Positions 48,792 to 58,204 of a stretch of DNA of 64,000 nt are shown here, piece after piece (the first letter of the stretch is position 1; every line of letters begins with the position of its first letter). The translations under genes and the position numbers were made by a program. The DNA comes from Bacillota bacterium (GTDB lineage Bacteria > Bacillota > SHA-98 > UBA4971), in NCBI GenBank assembly GCA_024653485.1, contig JANLFY010000002.1, forward strand, positions 62,001 to 126,000, in the 5' to 3' direction. The notes beneath the pieces were generated by a model, which was not told the origin of the DNA, did no database searches, and saw only the letters and a list, made by a program, of their open reading frames with translations.

Positions 48792-49703
48792 TCACCCTCC
48801 TATCTTCACCTCAAGCCCGAGCACTCTGAAGAAATCGGCGATGCGGTCCATGCGCCCGGCATCCGGGCCCTCCAACGCTTCGAGGCTGTACGCCCTGCCG
48901 AGGCGCTTGTACTTGTCCACTCCAATCTTGTGATACGGGAGCAGGTCGAGGCGCTCCGGGCGCCTGCCCTCTAGTGACGAGATTAACTCCGCGAACCGGC
49001 GGAGGCTTTCTTGGTCGTCGTTGACCCCGGGGATCACCGGCACGCGCAGGATCACACTCGCCCCCTTCGCGGTCAGGGCGCGCAGGTTCCCCAAGACATC
49101 CTCGTTGGGGAGGCCGACCTTGCGAAGGTGGATCTCGGGGTCTAGGACCTTGATGTCGTACAACCACACTCCCACCAACGGCGCCAGTCTCTCCACGAGT
49201 CCCCGGCCGCCGACTCCGCTCGTGTCCACCGCGGTGTGGATGTCTGCCGCACGGCAGGCCACGAGGAGATCCTCGAGGAACTCTGGCTGCGCGAGCGGCT
49301 CGCCCCCGCTAAATGTCGCGCCTCCTCCCGATTCGTCGTAGAAGATCCTGTCGCGCTCGAGCTCCCGCATGACTTCGTCCACGCTCACCAGCCGCCCGAC
49401 CACGGTCCGGGCGTCGAAGCGGCACGCGCGGACGCACATGCCGCACGCCGAGCACTTGCGGCGCGACGTCTCGGGACACCCGCCCACCATCTCTATCGCG
49501 CCCACCGGGCACGCCTCGGCGCACGCCCCGCACCCGGCGCACCTACGCTCCCAGAACATGATCTCTGGGCTCGGATCCTGGCTCTCCGGATTGTGGCACC
49601 ATTCGCATCGCGCGGGGCACCCTTTGAAGAACACTGCGGTGCGTATTCCCGGTCCGTCGTGGACCGAGTATCGTCGGATGTCGAAGACCAGACCTTGTCG
49701 CAC
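48792..49703 (-). CDS. hypE: Glycyl radical enzyme activase (radical SAM)
   Basis: Radical SAM enzyme of 303 residues that abstracts hydrogen from the glycine of the downstream dehydratase. The SAM cluster motif is GCPARCEWCHNPES, followed by two ferredoxin-like cluster motifs (CAGCGACAEACP and CSACGMCVRAC), as usual for dehydratase activases. ATFSGGEPLAQPEF binds SAM. GTG has AAAGGAG 8 bases upstream. It precedes hypD with a short overlap, so both are co-translated. Confidence 0.92.
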   Translation of the reverse strand: MRQGLVFDIRRYSVHDGPGIRTAVFFKGCPARCEWCHNPESQDPSPEIMFWERRCAGCGACAEACPVGAIEMVGGCPETSRRKCSACGMCVRACRFDARTVVGRLVSVDEVMRELERDRIFYDESGGGATFSGGEPLAQPEFLEDLLVACRAADIHTAVDTSGVGGRGLVERLAPLVGVWLYDIKVLDPEIHLRKVGLPNEDVLGNLRALTAKGASVILRVPVIPGVNDDQESLRRFAELISSLEGRRPERLDLLPYHKIGVDKYKRLGRAYSLEALEGPDAGRMDRIADFFRVLGLEVKIGG

Positions 49704-49850
49704 GCGACCGGGCTCCTTTGCCTCACTACAGGTTTACGCTGAGCGAGGGCGATCTGATGAAAAACACAATTCGACGCGGCTCACCCGAAACCCTATCCAA
49801 GAAAAAGTCCAGGGGCAAGCAGGATTCTCGCGCGGGACAGCGAACCCAAG

Positions 49851-49884
49851 TAATGCATTATTAGTAGCATTAATAGTATTAATG
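49851..49884. promoter_or_regulatory. AT-rich operator between hypE and the second gntR
   Basis: CATTAATAGTATTAATG (49868-49884) is a perfect 8-1-8 palindrome. Upstream lie TAATGCATTA, also palindromic, and a 12-base tandem repeat (GCATTATTAGTA, GCATTAATAGTA). In a GC-rich genome this stands out. It lies 25 bases before the gntR start and about 150 bases before hypE, so it may control either or both. Confidence 0.65.
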
Positions 49885-49908
49885 TGATGAGAAGGTGATG
49901 AGCGAGCC

Positions 49909-50670
49909 TTGAGAGCGGACGCAAAGTTGCCACACTACTTGAGGATCAAAGCAGATCTCCAGAATCGCATCCTTTCAGGGGATCTTGCACCGGGAGATCG
50001 CCTTCCATCCGAGGCTGAGCTGAGTCGGGAATTCGGAGTCAGCATGTCGACGATCAAGAGGGCGATAGCGGCGTTGGTCTCGGATCATCTTCTCGACCGA
50101 ACCCCTGGGCGCGGCACCTTCGTTACGAGGCCTCAAAGCGCCGGCACCGAGGTGCCCTTGCGCAGCTTCCACGAAGAGATGAGAGCTCGCGGTCTCACGC
50201 CGGGGTCCAAGGTGCTGACGAAGGAGATCATCCAGGCCGACGGAGAGCTCGCATGGCAACTGGACTTGCCGGAAGGCAGCGACGTCTACTTCGTCCGAAG
50301 CCTGAAGACGGCCGAATCCGTGCCTGTGGCGCTCGAAGAAGCGTATGTCCCGTGTGCGTCTTGTCCCGGATTGTTCGATCACGATCTCGAGGTCTACCCG
50401 ATCGAACGGCTTCTCGAGGACCGCTATCGTCTTGCGATCTTGAAAGCCTTGGAGTACGTCCATGCGCGCCCGGCGACGCCGGAAGAAAGCGCTCTTCTCG
50501 ACGCTCGAGACGAGCAGTTGATCCTCATCGTGGCCGACCGGACGGTCGAGGGTATTGGGCGACAGAGGGTCGAGTACTCCAGAACGCTCTACCGTGCCGA
50601 CCGGTACATATTGCGGTTTCACCTGCGACGATTTGCGGGAGCTTCTGAGGAAAGAGGCGAGCTTGCTTGA
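49909..50670 (+). CDS. GntR-family regulator with UTRA domain (second)
   Basis: Regulator of 253 residues, HutC subfamily. The winged helix contains LPSEAELSREFGVSMSTIKRAIAALVSDHLLDRTPGRGTFV; the remainder is a UTRA ligand domain. The start is TTG, with AAGGTGATG about 10 bases before; no ATG in frame fits. It overlaps the kinase gene (stop within TTGACG), heading the amino-sugar-like operon, so it probably senses the sugar or its phosphate and binds the palindrome just upstream. Confidence 0.88.
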   Translation: MRADAKLPHYLRIKADLQNRILSGDLAPGDRLPSEAELSREFGVSMSTIKRAIAALVSDHLLDRTPGRGTFVTRPQSAGTEVPLRSFHEEMRARGLTPGSKVLTKEIIQADGELAWQLDLPEGSDVYFVRSLKTAESVPVALEEAYVPCASCPGLFDHDLEVYPIERLLEDRYRLAILKALEYVHARPATPEESALLDARDEQLILIVADRTVEGIGRQRVEYSRTLYRADRYILRFHLRRFAGASEERGELA

Positions 50671-51692
50671 CGAACGACCCTTGCGAGTCGATATCCATCG
50701 GCGTGGACAGCGGCGGCACTAAGACCGTCGGGTGCGTGATTTCGTCTAGCGGAACGGTGTTGGGTCTCGGTTACGGCGGGCCCACGAATATCCTCTTCGT
50801 TCCGGAGCGGGACGCGAGACACGCGGTAAGGGAGGCCGTGTTGGGCGCGCTTGGGCAGAGCGGGGCAGCTGGCGGAGCATTTCCGCCGGTGCGGGTGGTC
50901 TACCTTTCCGCGCCAGGCTTCCCGGCTGACAGCGCGGAGCGCGCCTTGAGGCCGATAGTCCCAAGAGCGAGAATCGTGGTCGAATCCGACGCGTACGCGG
51001 CCTTCCGCGGGGCTCTGCCGCGGGGCGATGGGGTCGTTGTCTTGTCCGGCACCGGCTCCTTTGCTTGCGGGCACTGGCATGGCCGCTGGATCACGACAGG
51101 AGGCTGGGGTCCGCTTGTAGGCGACGAGGGCAGCGGATATTGGATCGGTGTGGAGGCTCTCAAAGCGGTTGTGCGCGCGGTCGATGGCCGCGGACCCTCA
51201 ACCGGGCTACGAGAGGTCTTCCGGCGGACGTTGCATTACTCGTTCGATCGGGAGCTGCGCCACTTCATCTACGGCAACGAATTGAACAGGCAGCGCATTG
51301 CAGGCCTAACGCTGCTGGTAGCGCAGGCCGCCAGGGATGGCGATTCTGTGGCGAGAGACATTCTCGAACGCGCCGGCCGGGAGCTGGCGATTCTGGGGTT
51401 CAGCGTGGCGGAACGCCTTGGTGCGGATGATGGGCCTCTGGTGGTCTCCGCCACGGGCGGAGTCATGAGGGCTGGATCTATTGTGCTGGAAACGTTTCGC
51501 CGCGAAATCGAGCGACTGGTACCTCAGGCACGGTACGTCCCGGCGCGTTTCCAACCATGGGTGGGTGCGGCTCTCTGCGCTCTTGAGCTCGACGGGATCG
51601 GAATCACGGACGCTCACTTGACGAGGCTGGAAGAATCCATCGTCCGCCCGGACGAGCCGCGATCGAAGGGAGGAGAGTATGCTACGGGATAA
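50667..51692 (+). CDS. BadF/BadG-type kinase, N-acetylglucosamine kinase-like
   Basis: ASKHA-fold ATPase of 341 residues. ATP-binding motifs are GVDSGGTKTVGCVI, VVVLSGTGSFACG, GGWGPLVGDEGSGYWIG and VSATGGVMRAG. Proteins of this type phosphorylate N-acetylglucosamine or related sugars; others activate radical dehydratases, but the sugar kinase type fits the operon better. It begins on the stop of the regulator gene and its 3' end overlaps the SIS gene by 14 bases. Confidence 0.85.
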   Translation: MTNDPCESISIGVDSGGTKTVGCVISSSGTVLGLGYGGPTNILFVPERDARHAVREAVLGALGQSGAAGGAFPPVRVVYLSAPGFPADSAERALRPIVPRARIVVESDAYAAFRGALPRGDGVVVLSGTGSFACGHWHGRWITTGGWGPLVGDEGSGYWIGVEALKAVVRAVDGRGPSTGLREVFRRTLHYSFDRELRHFIYGNELNRQRIAGLTLLVAQAARDGDSVARDILERAGRELAILGFSVAERLGADDGPLVVSATGGVMRAGSIVLETFRREIERLVPQARYVPARFQPWVGAALCALELDGIGITDAHLTRLEESIVRPDEPRSKGGEYATG

Positions 51693-52425
51693 GTACTTCT
51701 CGGCCATGAGGACGGTCTTGAGGAGGATAGAGGAAACACAGGGCAGGGCAATAGACGCGGCCGCTTCTCTGATCGTGGAATCTGTAGTGAGCGGGGGTAC
51801 GTGGAACCTCTACGACACGGGGCACATGCTGATGACGGAGGCGGTGGGCCGCGCGGGTGGACTCATGATGGTGACCCCGATCCGCGTCGAAGTGAAAGTG
51901 GAGCACGAATCCAGGCCTCGCGCCATCCCACCCAACCCGAACCGACTCTTTCTCGACCAGATCCGGGACCTCCCGGAATTCATCCTTACCAGAGCGGAGC
52001 TGCAAGCGGGGGATGTGTTGATGATTGGCTCCGTGTCGGGCGTGAACGTGTTGCCGGTCGGGCTGGCCATCAAAGCGCGAGAGATGGGGGTCAAGACCAT
52101 CGGCATCACCTCCGTGGCCGCGTCCGCCCTAATGACCTCGCAGCATGAGAGCGGACGCCGCCTGTACGAGGTCGTGGATCTGGTTCTGGACCAGTGCGTT
52201 CCGTACGGAGACGCGCTGGTGGAGGTGAGCGCCCTCGACGGCCAGCACATCTGCCCCGCGTCGGGAATCGCGGCCGCCTACTTGATGTGGGCGCTCCAAG
52301 CGACAGTGATCGAGCTTCTGGTAGAACGGGGCTTGCGCCCGAGCGTGTATCTGAGCAATCACCTTCCTGGGGCGGGTGAATTCAACGCAGCTATGCGGCT
52401 ACGGTATCGCAGCCAAGGGTTCTAG
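51679..52425 (+). CDS. SIS-domain sugar isomerase-like protein (UPF0309 type)
   Basis: SIS (sugar isomerase) fold protein of 248 residues. NLYDTGHMLMTEAVGRAGGL, DVLMIGSVSGVNVLPVGLAIKAREMGVKTIGITS and the helical end are typical of the UPF0309 group, often found beside BadF-type kinases and GntR regulators. Such proteins bind phosphosugars and may isomerise or deaminate them or act as etherases. It is translationally coupled to the kinase and probably acts on its product. Confidence 0.82.
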   Translation: MLRDKYFSAMRTVLRRIEETQGRAIDAAASLIVESVVSGGTWNLYDTGHMLMTEAVGRAGGLMMVTPIRVEVKVEHESRPRAIPPNPNRLFLDQIRDLPEFILTRAELQAGDVLMIGSVSGVNVLPVGLAIKAREMGVKTIGITSVAASALMTSQHESGRRLYEVVDLVLDQCVPYGDALVEVSALDGQHICPASGIAAAYLMWALQATVIELLVERGLRPSVYLSNHLPGAGEFNAAMRLRYRSQGF

Positions 52426-52468
52426 GTGTCCACGGGTCGTAGGCATCCATTCGGATGGGGGAGACAGA

Positions 52469-54778
52469 ATGGCTTGGTACAACAGGGAAGCGATTGACTT
52501 TGAGCTGGACCCAGGTTCCGGAGCCATCGCGCGCTTCGCGGTAAACGAGCGGCCGCTGTTAGCAAAGCCGGCTGTCGAGGGTGAGACGCCGCTACTCGAA
52601 GTCGTGCTCGTGATGGGCGAGCGAAAGATTCGAGTCCGGCCGCACACGGTTCACGTAAGACCACATCATGGGTCTATGAACGGGGCGTGTGGCATGCGCG
52701 CGGCTGAAGTGGAGTTTGTGCAGTGTGCCGAGGTTCAAGAGCTTCCAGGTGCTCGCCAAGATGTTCCCGAGGTTGACCTCGAGGAGGCGGCCGAGCGAAG
52801 CGCGCAGCTCTACCAGGTGACCGGACGCTGCCTCTTGGACATCGAAGACGATGGGACCTTCATATGGCGTTTATCACTCGAGAACAAGACCGGTCTCCCG
52901 GTGCATGAGATCCTCTTCCCTTGCCTCGGCCCCGTGCGACTGCCCGGGACGGCGGACCTGCTCTATCCCCACCACGCAGGCGAGAAGATCCGTGACGTTC
53001 CCGCGAGCCTCGCGAGCGAGCGATACTTGAGGTTCTGGCGGGCACAGAGTGTCCCGACTCCGTGCGGGTACGCCCGGGAGATCAATTACTGCGGCCTTGC
53101 CTCCATGACATGGATGGACCTCACCGACGGTGTGATAGGGCTGTATGCAGCTTCGTATGACCCTTCCTTTCCCGTCACCGGGCTCCGCGTGGAGACGGGA
53201 GGGCCGGAGGACCCATGGGTTACCCTGGGTTTTCGGAAGTACGTGGATGTCGAGCCCGGGGGTCTACACGAGACGGGCCCTGTGGTCTGGCGGGTTCACT
53301 CTGGCGACTGGCATGAGGCCGCGAGAGAGTACCGACGCTGGTTCGACGGGCTGGTTGAACAGCGGGAACAGCCGGAGGACCTCCGGAGGGAGGTTGTGAT
53401 CACGACCCATTACCAGTTCCGGCGGTACGAAGGGATAGCGCACCGCTTCGAGGACATCCCGCGCCTCTTCGACCGAGACAAGAGCGAGTTTCAGAGCCGC
53501 CACTTCTTCATTGCGAGCTGGAATCACCTTGGGTTTGATAGTCACTATCCCGACTACAATCCCGATCTCGAGCTCGGCACGCCGTTGAAGCTATACGAAG
53601 GGGTCAGGTACGTTCGGGATTCAGGCGGGTTCGCCACATTCTACATCAACAGCCGGATAATGGATCGCCACTCTGAGTACTTGCCTTCGCTGGGACAACG
53701 CTGGCTCCTGCGAAACGAAAGAGGAGAGCCGATCTCCGAGACATACGGCCCCGCGGAGGCCGTGGTATTGTGCCCGTCGTGCTCCGAGTGGCGCTCGTAC
53801 TTGGAGGAGTTCGCGGTCTGGATGTGTCAGGCTTACGGGGCTAGGGGCATCTACTTCGACCAGCTGGGTTCCGCTATGCCTTTGCCGTGTTACGCGTCTC
53901 ACGCCCACAGTCCCGTGCGAGGCTCCTGGGGATTCAACGCGGCCTATGTCGACCTGATCGAACGGACGACTGGAAGGTTGCGGGCGCTTCGCCCCGACGC
54001 GTTCCTGATGATCGAGAACTGCGGCGACATCTACAGCAGTCGCGTGTTCGCCAACGTTGCTTGGAACGGCGAACGATACGACGAGTTCTTCAATCTGTAC
54101 AAGTTCACGTTCCCAGAGCACATTCTCATCAACATGGTCAATCCGCGGAACGTGAAAGACCCCGCCCTGCAAGAGGAGATGTTCTACCGAGATCTGGACC
54201 GCGCCTTCGTTCTGGGCAGCGTCTTCTGGATCGAACCGGACCACTTCGATGACAGGGTTACCGATGACGAGCTTCGCTCGCGCATGGTTGGCTCCCTGAA
54301 GCGAGCGATCCGCGTGAGAGAAGCCACGGCGCCCTATCTGGCACACGCGGTGTTCATGGACGATCTGGAGCTGGAGGTGCCGGCGGGCCTCAAGGCGACT
54401 CGCTGGGAGAGTGCGGGGAAGAACGCCGGCGGTCTCCTCCTGGTGGTGAACCGTGAGAGACTATCTGACCTCGTCATCACTCTCTCGCGAGACGCCTGGA
54501 CATCGGGTGGCGATTCGGGCTACGGCCGGCCTGGGGGCGGGGGTCGGCTCGAGGTAGCCGAACCGGTGACACCGCCGTTTGGCACCCGGCCCGAGACGCG
54601 GCGCGCGGACGCGGAGGGAACGGACGCGGCGGGATCAGAGGTGTGGCGACTCGACTCGGAGACTTGCGAATGGCGGCGGGATTCTGCGCGCGTGGTCGGC
54701 GACGCGCGCCTCTTCTCGATTCCGTCAGCGGAGTATTCGGTGTTCCGTTGGGGATTCGACGGAAAGGAGGAAGCCTGA
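52469..54778 (+). CDS. Glycoside hydrolase-like protein (DUF6259 type)
   Basis: A 769-residue protein without signal peptide. The N-terminal half is beta-rich; the centre (about residues 310-610) looks like a TIM barrel with possible acidic catalytic residues, for example GIYFDQLGS and FLMIENCGDI, and conserved aromatic stretches (HFFIASWNHLGFDSHYPDYNPD). This layout matches DUF6259 proteins, assigned to glycoside hydrolases. The C-terminal part (about 690-740) is Gly/Arg-rich low complexity. ATG 52469 has GGGGGAG 5 bases upstream. It probably cleaves the oligosaccharide imported by the following transporter. Confidence 0.7.
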   Translation: MAWYNREAIDFELDPGSGAIARFAVNERPLLAKPAVEGETPLLEVVLVMGERKIRVRPHTVHVRPHHGSMNGACGMRAAEVEFVQCAEVQELPGARQDVPEVDLEEAAERSAQLYQVTGRCLLDIEDDGTFIWRLSLENKTGLPVHEILFPCLGPVRLPGTADLLYPHHAGEKIRDVPASLASERYLRFWRAQSVPTPCGYAREINYCGLASMTWMDLTDGVIGLYAASYDPSFPVTGLRVETGGPEDPWVTLGFRKYVDVEPGGLHETGPVVWRVHSGDWHEAAREYRRWFDGLVEQREQPEDLRREVVITTHYQFRRYEGIAHRFEDIPRLFDRDKSEFQSRHFFIASWNHLGFDSHYPDYNPDLELGTPLKLYEGVRYVRDSGGFATFYINSRIMDRHSEYLPSLGQRWLLRNERGEPISETYGPAEAVVLCPSCSEWRSYLEEFAVWMCQAYGARGIYFDQLGSAMPLPCYASHAHSPVRGSWGFNAAYVDLIERTTGRLRALRPDAFLMIENCGDIYSSRVFANVAWNGERYDEFFNLYKFTFPEHILINMVNPRNVKDPALQEEMFYRDLDRAFVLGSVFWIEPDHFDDRVTDDELRSRMVGSLKRAIRVREATAPYLAHAVFMDDLELEVPAGLKATRWESAGKNAGGLLLVVNRERLSDLVITLSRDAWTSGGDSGYGRPGGGGRLEVAEPVTPPFGTRPETRRADAEGTDAAGSEVWRLDSETCEWRRDSARVVGDARLFSIPSAEYSVFRWGFDGKEEA

Positions 54779-54780
54779 CC

Positions 54781-55686
54781 GTGCGTGGAGGGCAACAGAG
54801 GCGGCGTCTCTTGCGACAGCGCGAGCAGTTCGAGGCGTGGCTCTTTCTTGCCCCGAACCTAGCGGGGTTCTTCGTCTTCACAGTGTTCGCCGTGGTGTTT
54901 TCCCTGTGGATCAGCCTTCACGAATGGGATCTCTTCAACCCTCCAACGTTCGTAGGCGTTGCCAACTTCGCGAAGCTGCTCACTAGGGACGCGAACCTGA
55001 GGCGCGCTCTATGGAACACAGTCTGCTTCGCATTGGGCATCGTGCCGTTGGGCACTGCGGTGGCTCTCGCACTGGCCCTCCTGGTCAATAGGGCTGTAAA
55101 GGGAGTCACGTTGTTCCGCACCGCGCTTTACATCCCCTCAGTGAGCTCGACCATTGCCATCGGCATAGTCTGGGTCTGGCTTCTCGATCCCCAGTTCGGG
55201 CTCGTCAACTGGTTTCTCAGGACCATCGGCGTGGCCCACCCTCCGGACTGGCTCAGCTCCACGTTGTGGGCCAAGCCAGCGTTGATTCTGATGGACGTTT
55301 GGAAGTCGGCAGGCTACTATATGGTGATCTTCCTCGCCGGTCTTCAAGGCATCCCGGAACAGCTTTACGAGGCCGCGCTGATCGATGGCGCCACCCCATG
55401 GAGGAAGTTCTGGAGCATCACGCTCCCCCTTCTATCTCCCACGATCTTTTTCGTCGTGGTCATGCGCATCATAGGCGTGTTCAACATGTTCGAGCTGCCG
55501 TACATAATGACGTTGGGCGGGCCTGCCGGGTCGACGGAGACAATGGTGTTCTACATCTACAAGAATGCGTTCGAGTGGTTCCAAATGGGGTACGCCGCCG
55601 CAATAGCCTGGCTGCTCTTCCTCATCATATTCGCTGTCACCTACGTGCAGTTTCGCTATCAAAGAAGGTGGGTAACGTATGACTAG
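54781..55686 (+). CDS. Sugar ABC transporter permease, MalF/UgpA type
   Basis: Membrane subunit of 301 residues with six predicted segments, beginning WLFLAPNLAGFFVFTVFAVVFSLWISLHEWDLF. The coupling loop reads LYEAALIDGATPWRKFWSITLPLLSP. GTG 54781 follows AAGGAGG by 12 bases, and the gene begins right after the glycosidase stop. The next permease starts inside its end (55679), so the two are coupled. Confidence 0.9.
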   Translation: MRGGQQRRRLLRQREQFEAWLFLAPNLAGFFVFTVFAVVFSLWISLHEWDLFNPPTFVGVANFAKLLTRDANLRRALWNTVCFALGIVPLGTAVALALALLVNRAVKGVTLFRTALYIPSVSSTIAIGIVWVWLLDPQFGLVNWFLRTIGVAHPPDWLSSTLWAKPALILMDVWKSAGYYMVIFLAGLQGIPEQLYEAALIDGATPWRKFWSITLPLLSPTIFFVVVMRIIGVFNMFELPYIMTLGGPAGSTETMVFYIYKNAFEWFQMGYAAAIAWLLFLIIFAVTYVQFRYQRRWVTYD

Positions 55687-56560
55687 GGAGATCCGTACTG
55701 CCGGAGTCGTTGTGACGTCCGCCGCCCGTAGAGCCGCCAAGGAGCGCCTGGGGAACGCGGCAGTCTTCGTTCTATTGAGCATAATATCCGTTGCCACTGT
55801 CTTGCCGTTCCTGTGGACGATCTCCTCTGCGCTGAAAGGACCTGGACAGGTATTCGACTACCCGCCAAGATGGATTCCCAGCCCGGCGCACTGGGAGAAC
55901 TTCGCCACGGCCTGGAACCGCGTGCCCTTCGGCCGCTTCCTCCTGAACTCGACGTTTGTAGCGTGTTCCGTTGTGTTCTTGCGTCTCTTGACTTCGTCGC
56001 TCGCTGCCTACGCCTTTGCCCGAATGCGCTTTCCGGGACGCGACGCTATGTTCCTCCTCTATCTCGGCACGCTGATGATTCCGGGGCAGGTGACCATCAT
56101 CCCTAGGTTCATCCTAGTGCGTTACCTTCACTGGCTTGATACGTATACCGCTATGATCTTGCCTGGGGCTTTCTCCGCTTTCGGGACTTTCTTGCTGCGC
56201 CAGTTCTTCCTTACGCTTCCGTACGAACTCGAGGACGCTGCGAGAATCGACGGGTGCAGCCGCCTCGGGGTGTATTGGCACATCATACTGCCCTTATCCC
56301 GACCTGCCCTCGTGGCGCTCGGGATATTCACGTTCGAGGGTGAATGGAACGCGTTCCTGTGGCCGTTGATCGTGGCGAACAACCCAATGAAGATGCCAGT
56401 CCAGGTGGGTCTTGCGTTCTTTCGGGGGATGTACTCGACCGAATGGGAGATCATGCTGGCGGGCACTCTCATCGCTCTCGTCCCCACGCTCGTCGTGTTT
56501 GCTGCGGGTCAGAGGTACTTCACGAAAGGAATCGCTCTTTCCGGGTTGGGAGGCCGCTAG
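55679..56560 (+). CDS. Sugar ABC transporter permease, MalG/UgpE type
   Basis: Membrane subunit of 293 residues with six predicted segments. SSLAAYAFARMRFPGRDAMFLLYLGTLMIPGQVTIIPRFILVRYLHWLDTYTAMILPG and the coupling loop LEDAARIDGCSRLGVYWHIILPLSRPAL match the family. It overlaps the previous permease gene by 8 bases. No ATPase gene follows anywhere in this operon, so the importer must borrow a shared ATPase. Confidence 0.92.
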   Translation: MTREIRTAGVVVTSAARRAAKERLGNAAVFVLLSIISVATVLPFLWTISSALKGPGQVFDYPPRWIPSPAHWENFATAWNRVPFGRFLLNSTFVACSVVFLRLLTSSLAAYAFARMRFPGRDAMFLLYLGTLMIPGQVTIIPRFILVRYLHWLDTYTAMILPGAFSAFGTFLLRQFFLTLPYELEDAARIDGCSRLGVYWHIILPLSRPALVALGIFTFEGEWNAFLWPLIVANNPMKMPVQVGLAFFRGMYSTEWEIMLAGTLIALVPTLVVFAAGQRYFTKGIALSGLGGR

Positions 56561-56938
56561 GCGGCGGGCTGCCTTGCACCACTCGCCGGGCTCGAGCGGG
56601 TCGAAACGTGCGGAACGCCCGGAGGAGCGTTCGCGGGCGGCGGCCGGGCGGGCAGCGTGGGATGGAGGCGCTGGTACAGACGCGAGGCAGAGGCAGCCGT
56701 GCGCGGGGCAGACGCTGAGCTGGCGCGGAGGAGTGCCTGGCTAATGCGCGGTCGAAGCTAAAGCCGACACCGGTCCGAAAGAGGGATGGGGTGAAAGGAG
56801 GGGGGAATGAGGGCAATCCTCCGTGTTCGTTACGCTGGGTTCGTCGTCAGATCTGTCGTAGGGAGCCAGCGGGTCTATGTGGACCTCGGGAGCAACGTGC
56901 GGTCGAGTCTGCGGTCTACCAAAAGGAGGGCACGAGAT
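56561..56938 (+). other. Spacer with an extra in-frame start upstream of the binding protein
   Basis: Mostly arginine-coding GC-rich sequence without a gene. At its end AAAGGAGGGGGG directly precedes an ATG at 56807, in frame with the binding-protein gene whose preferred start is 56939. The extra 44 codons would precede the signal peptide. Confidence 0.45.
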
Positions 56939-58204
56939 ATGCGAGTAAGAAGGTTCTTCGTAGGGATCCTGGCGCTCGCCCTATCGCTCGGCGTCGCCGT
57001 AGCGCCGTGCGCCGCGGCCAAGACGAAAGTGCGGGTCTCGACATGGTGGAGCTTTGAGACAGGGAGTCCCCTCGACGCGTTGAAGGCTGCCTTTGAGGCG
57101 GCGAATCCCGACATCGAGATCGAGTACCTACAGATTCCTTCCTCAGAGTACTATACGAAAGTCTTGACGATGATCGCAGGCGGCACTCCGCCCGACGTCG
57201 CCATGCTGGGCATGGATAAGCTCGGCTCATGGGTCCCCCGCGGTGCGCTTCAGGAACTCACTTCATACATCAAGGAGGCCGGGTACGACCTGAATCAGCT
57301 CTTTCCCGCGGTACGTAGGGCCATTGAGTTCCGCGGCGGCATCTATGCCCTTCCGAGGGACGTGACCACGAGCGTCGTTGCGTACAACAAGACCCTCTTT
57401 GACCAGGCCGGCGTGGCCTATCCGAAGGCGGGTTGGACGCGCCAAGACTTCCTGAACACGGCCAAGGCCTTGACGAAAGTGGAAGGCGGTCGCACAACGG
57501 TGTTCGGCTACGCCTTCGATACTTTCCCCGACGGATTCGTGGACTGGCTCTTCACGAACGGAGCGAGCTTCATCGACGCCCAGGCCAACCGCGACGCGCT
57601 GCACGAGCCGAAGGCGGCGGAGGTCCTGAAGTTCCTGCAGGGCATGATCAAAGAGGGCATCGCTCCCTCGCCGAGCCAGGCGGAGGCCTTCAAGTACGCC
57701 TCCAGCGCGTTCACGATTCAGAAGACTGCTATGTACGTCGCCACGGTAGGATGGGCGAACACTTTCGCCAAGGACGCCAAGCTCAACTGGGACGTGGCGC
57801 CCATGCCAGTCTGGGCTGAAGGAATGGAGCCTGCTTGCAGACTCTGGGTCAATTTCTGGACGCTCCCGAAAGGATCCGTTCATCCGAAGGAAGCTTTCAA
57901 GGTGATGGCGTTCTTCGCGGGACCAGTTGGCCAGAAGATCGTGGGCGAAACCCGCATGGGCATCCCCGCCATTCGCGATATCGCGTACGGCCCGGCCTTC
58001 CTGGGGCTCCCGGGAGCGCCTGAACACCGCCAGGTCTTCCTGGATGTAATGCACAACGCTATCCCGTTCCCGCTCTTCCCGGAGAGCGACCAGTACTTCA
58101 CCGTCATGAGGCGAGAGCTCGACCAGGTGTGGGCGGGTCAGAGATCGGTGGAAGACGCTGTTGCGGCAATCGATCGGGAGACTCGTTCGCTGTTCGGCAA
58201 GTAG
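56939..58204 (+). CDS. Extracellular sugar-binding protein of an ABC importer
   Basis: Family 1 solute-binding protein of 421 residues. The Sec signal peptide (MRVRRFFVGILALALSLGVAVAP) ends near CAAA. VRVSTWWSFETGSPLDALKAAFEAANPDIEIEYLQIPSSEYYTKVLTMIAGGTPPDVAMLGMDKLG is the usual first lobe. ATG 56939 has AAAAGGAGGG 9 bases upstream and gives a normal signal peptide; ATG 56807 has an equally strong site. It is the receptor for the two permeases upstream. Confidence 0.9.
   Translation: MRVRRFFVGILALALSLGVAVAPCAAAKTKVRVSTWWSFETGSPLDALKAAFEAANPDIEIEYLQIPSSEYYTKVLTMIAGGTPPDVAMLGMDKLGSWVPRGALQELTSYIKEAGYDLNQLFPAVRRAIEFRGGIYALPRDVTTSVVAYNKTLFDQAGVAYPKAGWTRQDFLNTAKALTKVEGGRTTVFGYAFDTFPDGFVDWLFTNGASFIDAQANRDALHEPKAAEVLKFLQGMIKEGIAPSPSQAEAFKYASSAFTIQKTAMYVATVGWANTFAKDAKLNWDVAPMPVWAEGMEPACRLWVNFWTLPKGSVHPKEAFKVMAFFAGPVGQKIVGETRMGIPAIRDIAYGPAFLGLPGAPEHRQVFLDVMHNAIPFPLFPESDQYFTVMRRELDQVWAGQRSVEDAVAAIDRETRSLFGK

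Follow-up and report, generated by a model that had tools for sequence, protein, structure and literature searches.

A candidate operator of three tandem 9-bp units upstream of a HutC-type gntR gene in a Bacillota sugar operon

In the 64,000-nucleotide stretch of Bacillota DNA analysed here (the window, from genome G000), the gntR gene of an uncharacterised sugar operon is preceded by three head-to-tail 9-bp units, TATTAGTAG-CATTAATAG-TATTAATGT, at 49859-49885. The operator of the adjacent GntR very probably lies at this site, because related DNA adjoins orthologous gntR genes, and the comparison makes it likely that the array serves the sugar operon locally as an autorepressor operator, composed of three tandem half-sites with TTAA cores. 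The initial annotation, drawn from this single sequence, had described a palindrome with control in both directions; comparison with relatives corrects that reading and provides a candidate control site for the operon.

The genes from gntR through the solute-binding gene run in one direction, to the right of a 205-bp gap, with hypE and hypD divergent on its left. The gntR product carries an HTH domain followed by a UTRA domain, as in the HutC subfamily (PF00392, 72.2 bits, cut-off 27; PF07702, 98.7 bits, cut-off 23.8). The badF product scored 103.6 bits against the NCBIfam NagK model, under its cut-off of 370, and hypD scored 1342.6 bits (cut-off 1100). DUF6259 is named in no paper of the literature searched, outside which most subscription papers fall. 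The features, with their strands, are as follows.

48792..49703, reverse strand: hypE-like glycyl-radical activase gene, divergent (NF043069, 363.2 bits, below the cut-off of 425), judged to lie outside the feature
49851..49860, no strand: palindrome TAATGCATTA, absent from G002, a genome of the same genus
49859..49867, forward strand: unit 1, TATTAGTAG, the weakest unit (lag-9 self-match; contiguity checked)
49868..49876, forward strand: unit 2, CATTAATAG, left part of the palindrome; the same unit occurs in G442 and G421
49877..49885, forward strand: unit 3, TATTAATGT, right part of the palindrome (lag-9 self-match; contiguity)
49868..49884, no strand: 17-bp exact 8-1-8 palindrome, a probable by-product of units 2 and 3
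49884..49905, forward strand: 11-bp direct duplication, GTGATGAGAAG/GTGATGAGCGA, seen in the sequence
49909..50670, forward strand: gntR, GntR HTH (residues 10-72) and UTRA (93-233), HutC type, TTG start (Pfam)
50667..51692, forward strand: badF, BadF/NagK-like sugar kinase family (PF01869, 127.2 bits)
51679..52425, forward strand: SIS-domain sugar isomerase-like protein (PF13580; NF002805, 206.2 bits, cut-off 135)
52376..54778, forward strand: DUF6259 protein, start codon uncertain (PF19773, 107.9 bits)
54643..56560, forward strand: two ABC sugar permease genes, 54643-55686 and 55679-56560 (PF00528 in both)
56807..58204, forward strand: ABC solute-binding protein gene (PF01547, 140.2 bits)

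Counted back from the gntR start codon, the array spans 23-50 bp; it ends at 49885, 23 bp short of that codon, and is separated from the start codon of hypE by 155 bp. Its lag-9 self-match has p=0.004 and its three-unit score is 17/18; the three repeats, being contiguous 9-bp units, are less than a helical turn apart. The window and G002 stretches gave no match to a sigma-70-like promoter consensus, which may not be the host's, that would position the array relative to a transcription start.

We found an orthologous gntR-badF-SIS operon in 10 genomes, including G000 and G002. In the class of G315 (72 genomes), eight genomes had a GntR match at E<=1e-45, and in all eight the gene order was gntR, then the badF match, then the SIS match. 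The 10 orthologous GntRs form an exact clade (FastTree support 0.999) among 57 proteins, the remainder being 47 of the 51 control GntRs, with L024, L025, L026 and L031 left out. The GntRs of G015 (39%) and G182 (40%) had E-values like those of the weakest orthologues, yet fell outside the clade and were used as controls; in G182, badF comes after the SIS gene rather than after gntR.

Periodicity was scored in the nine orthologues with readable upstream DNA (that of G434 is N), using a motif-free measure, the highest lag-9 self-match of any 27-bp stretch in the 150 bp upstream, against 500 dinucleotide shuffles each. As the initial annotation had expected of its motif, related DNA does lie beside orthologous gntR genes: a contiguous head-to-tail 9-bp repeat was present in seven of the nine, with p<=0.008.

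G000: TATTAGTAG-CATTAATAG-TATTAATGT, lag-9 p=0.004
G002: TGTTAGTAG-CATTAATGG-CATTAAGGT, lag-9 p=0.004
G442: GAATAATAG-CATTAATAG-CATTAAGTA-CATTGATAT, lag-9 p=0.002
G421: TAATAATGT-CATTAATAG-CATTAATGC, lag-9 p=0.008
G450: GCTTAAGCG-ACTTAAGCG-GTTTAATAC, lag-9 p=0.004
G449: ACTTAAATG-ACTTAAGTG, lag-9 p=0.008; third unit off register, array farther from the start (about 83 bp)
G451: GTTTAAGCA-CCTTAAGCG-GTTTAAGCG, lag-9 p=0.008

The same test over 150 bp upstream detected no array in G448 (p=0.27) or G315 (p=0.89). Among the 51 control gntR upstreams, none reached p<0.01 at lag 9 and three reached p<0.05, giving a Fisher value of 9e-8 for orthologues against controls that ignores relatedness. At the other lags from 6 to 14, none gave 12/18 or more in more than two of the nine orthologues. 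A unit-based score (three YWTTAA at 9-bp steps) gave p<=0.004 in five orthologues, 0.026 in G450, 0.082 in G449, 0.38 in G448 and 0.97 in G315, although it is not independent, since it was derived from the same sequences.

The palindrome itself, CATTAATAGTATTAATG at 49868-49884, is an exact 8-1-8 inverted repeat, as had been claimed, and the genome scan that the claim called for found no second copy of this 17-mer in the 3.0 Mb genome with up to 3 mismatches allowed (its own reverse strand aside). The 205-bp intergenic region has a GC content of 50.7%, against 60.8% for the window, and a palindrome with arms of at least 8 and a loop of at most 1 arose there by chance in 0.4% of 5000 dinucleotide shuffles. 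Across the whole window, 11 inverted repeats with arms of at least 8 and loops of at most 6 were observed, where 20 shuffles gave 8.15 on average; symmetry by itself is therefore weak evidence.

A classical operator, with one GntR dimer on the 17-bp palindrome and unit 1 as at most an accessory box, appears rather unlikely. It would account for the exact symmetry in the window (p=0.002) and for the borderline symmetry (p 0.054-0.09) in G002, G421, G450 and G449, and PMC4494728 describes GntR palindromes accompanied by weaker additional boxes. G002 keeps seven of the eight pairs, and positions 8/10 have changed together from A-T to G-C; this change raises direct-repeat identity too, and so cannot separate a palindrome from a repeat. 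However, symmetry is lacking in G442 (p=0.99) and G451 (p=0.52) despite their strong 9-bp repeats, and ranges over p=0.054-0.99 in the eight orthologues scored besides the window; p<0.05 was reached in 2 of the 51 control upstreams. The palindrome is best explained by the juxtaposition of two 9-bp units, because these have a self-complementary TTAA core, and we do not regard it as the functional unit, because the feature common to the orthologues is the direct repeat.

Of the two further repeats reported ahead of the palindrome, TAATGCATTA is indeed present at 49851-49860, whereas the 12-base tandem repeat holds only loosely (9/12 positions by eye, 49857-49880), the stronger period being 9 (49859-49885). 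The lag-12 self-match reaches 13/18 in the window and 7-11 in the remaining eight scored orthologues; both TAATGCATTA and the 12-base repeat are absent from G002. The duplication GTGATGAGAAG/GTGATGAGCGA, with two copies in the window and one in G002, likely contains the gntR ribosome-binding site.

Relatives within the genus indicate to which side the array belongs. From gntR to the solute-binding protein, the operon is retained in G002 with protein identities of 65-91%. The upstream neighbour of its gntR is a co-directional ABC permease-like gene, and TTAGTAGCATTAATGGCATTAAGGTGATGA lies immediately upstream of gntR. Over the block 49863-49891, 25/29 columns are identical between the window and G002, which is higher than at the third codon positions of gntR (128/253; binomial 6.7e-5) and in the flank upstream (41/61 columns; p 0.019). 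No hypE match was found in G002 at E<=1e-60, though the array is present. In G004 and G005, hypE orthologues occur at 77-78%, a scan for the motif, as distinct from the array pattern, found nothing at <=1 mismatch, and the DNA upstream of hypE is alike in the two and unlike that of the window. The array goes with gntR, not hypE, as judged from G002, which has the array without hypE, and from G004 and G005, which have hypE without the motif; none of the three keeps the site together with both operons.

These comparisons bear on a two-way switch, in which GntR at this site would also control the divergent hypE-hypD genes. The divergent arrangement about a 205-bp gap is compatible with such a switch, and single sites in GntR divergons usually regulate both operons according to PMC4494728, but the same paper places shared single sites near the middle, whereas the present site is much nearer to gntR (23 bp) than to hypE (155 bp). 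Moreover, hypE and the motif separate in the genus, and nine other stretches around orthologous gntR operons gave no tblastn match to hypD or hypE at E<=1e-6. We therefore consider control of the hydroxyproline genes, as first annotated, highly improbable; the other half of that proposal, an operator for the sugar operon, is supported.

Binding by the adjacent GntR is a prediction, and the array could in principle be bound by another regulator encoded elsewhere, which we likewise think has very little chance of being correct. Against it, the array tracks this gntR clade over two classes, is the sole matching place in four genomes, and has a unit that differs with the recognition helix of the adjacent GntR. 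We scanned the 10 orthologue genomes for HTTAA-N4-HTTAA-N4-HTTAA at 1 mismatch, with the reversed pattern as control. The gntR array was the sole match in G000, G421, G450 and G451, with 0, 10, 0 and 0 reversed matches, respectively; uniqueness in G421 is less informative because of its 10 control matches. G002 had the array and two other matches (L111 inside open frames; L104 overlapping the first bases of one and otherwise between frames), and in G442 two places besides the array matched (control 4). In G434, with its unreadable gntR upstream, there were 18 matches elsewhere against 14 for the control. No match was found in G315, G448 or G449; in G449 the third unit is off register. The 17-mer and array-pattern scans revealed no wider regulon in the window's genome. 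A phylum scan for CATTAATRGYATTAAKG matched 5 of 398 genomes besides G000 and G002, which we take as background, the reversed control likewise giving 5 matches. A related-locus search of genome contigs returned one weak relative, which was left out.

The least probable account is an RNA structure (a hairpin or terminator), a promoter element, or AT-rich symmetry that arose by chance. The stretch is AT-rich in a GC-rich genome and palindromes of this size in the window are near expectation (11 against 8.15), but it folds no better than shuffles (z 0.78; 159/200 fold at least as well), which with the absence of a terminator led us to reject a hairpin or terminator. A sigma-70 consensus is likewise absent from the window stretch, and block conservation and 9-bp periodicity in relatives also speak against this account.

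For the array as an autorepressor operator, we infer GntR binding, repression, cooperativity, stoichiometry and the effector along the following lines. In the uninduced state, adjacent units would be occupied by GntR molecules lying next to one another across the gntR promoter/start region, which would repress gntR and, behind it, the genes for the kinase, isomerase, DUF6259 protein and ABC transporter. Repression would end when a sugar metabolite, perhaps a sugar phosphate or amino-sugar phosphate, binds the UTRA domain.

Known regulators offer partial parallels. The canonical operator of the HutC subfamily is NyGTMTAKACNy (PMC4494728). The window GntR belongs to the same protein family and its site is close upstream of the regulator gene; in contrast to the canonical case, however, Arg28 and Arg38 are missing, and the 120 bp upstream contain nothing closer to GTMTAKAC than a match with 3 mismatches. 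The lack of this operator does not exclude HutC membership, because the subfamily has direct-repeat exceptions. Two such exceptions are FarR and NagQ, HutC-subfamily GntR regulators with direct-repeat motifs (PMC4494728). They resemble the window GntR in that direct repeats replace GTMTAKAC; FarR TGTATTAWTT (PMC4494728) and window AGTATTAATG have GTATTAAT in common, and the direct repeat is conserved here as lag-9 periodicity in 7/9 orthologues, with binding predicted. Unlike in FarR and NagQ, the units are contiguous, 9 bp long and usually three, and a second subclade (YTTAAGCG) lacks a GT/AC signature.

In E. coli NanR, a 32-residue N-terminal extension mediates the cooperative binding of three dimers to (GGTATA)3 (PMC8012715). 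As there, three closely spaced tandem repeats precede a sugar operon and the regulator has a GntR-type DNA-binding domain, but the window GntR has UTRA as its effector domain and its repeat is TTAA-centred. It also lacks a NanR-type extension: the HTH match starts at residue 10, and the open frame (259 aa, against 253 aa for the protein) leaves room for no more than 6 additional residues. Cooperativity, if there is any, would therefore have to rely on a different contact. In the literature searched, outside which most subscription papers fall, we found no paper on UTRA regulators with direct-repeat operators and no GntR paper on a 9-bp tandem-repeat operator with N-acetylglucosamine; two papers in it mention GntR together with three direct repeats.

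Specific base contacts of FadR and AraR fall at HTH positions 28, 37-39 and 58-59, and correlations within HutC at positions 28, 39, 43 and 62, according to PMC4494728; we numbered the present GntRs by our own alignment onto that scheme. Arg is absent from both position 28 and position 38 in all 10 orthologues. We searched the 120 bp upstream of 54 homologues, a set that includes three orthologues lacking Arg38, for an exact GTMTAKAC; the operator was present for 16 of the 41 with Arg38 and for 0 of the 13 without it (Fisher 0.006, a rough value because the proteins are related). It occurred in 15/23 homologues with Arg38 and Met39 against 1/31 of the remainder, and in 0.9% of shuffled upstreams.

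Two subclades of the orthologues differ in both helix and unit: one combines helix SxST[IV]KR with units of the CATTAATAG type, the other [GS]xATVKQ with units of the YTTAAGCG type. In the first, position 2 of the unit is A in 12/13 units, against C/T in 8/8 of the second, and position 7 is T in 11/13 against G in 6/8, counts that rest on units picked by eye in related sequences. G315, with helix SQATAKH, has neither unit type in 150 bp upstream. We tentatively propose that a GntR clade lacking Arg28 and Arg38 may read TTAA-centred 9-bp arrays, with two units that differ with the helix, in convergence with NanR and without its extension. Since operator unit and recognition helix vary together, the orthologue set offers material on the departure of GntR proteins from the GT-AC code, and it bears on how they adopt direct-repeat operators.

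Other sites were seen upstream of the homologues and orthologues. GntR homologues with helix SRIT...K (L004, L006, L007, L010 and L040) have, by eye, GATATATC-like symmetric sites and no exact GTMTAKAC upstream, which suggests another helix-operator pairing. The gntR upstream of L041 contains a perfect 22-bp palindrome, TATAGACGTATATACGTCTATA, that includes the canonical HutC operator of this homologue. Lastly, GCAGGA (49819-49824 in the window) occurs in 15 of 60 gntR upstreams of 150 bp, against 2.4 expected by shuffling, including gntR-type upstreams such as those of L075, L078 and L081; by eye, it lies roughly 29-32 bp before the array in G442, G450, G449 and G451, possibly as a promoter-linked element.
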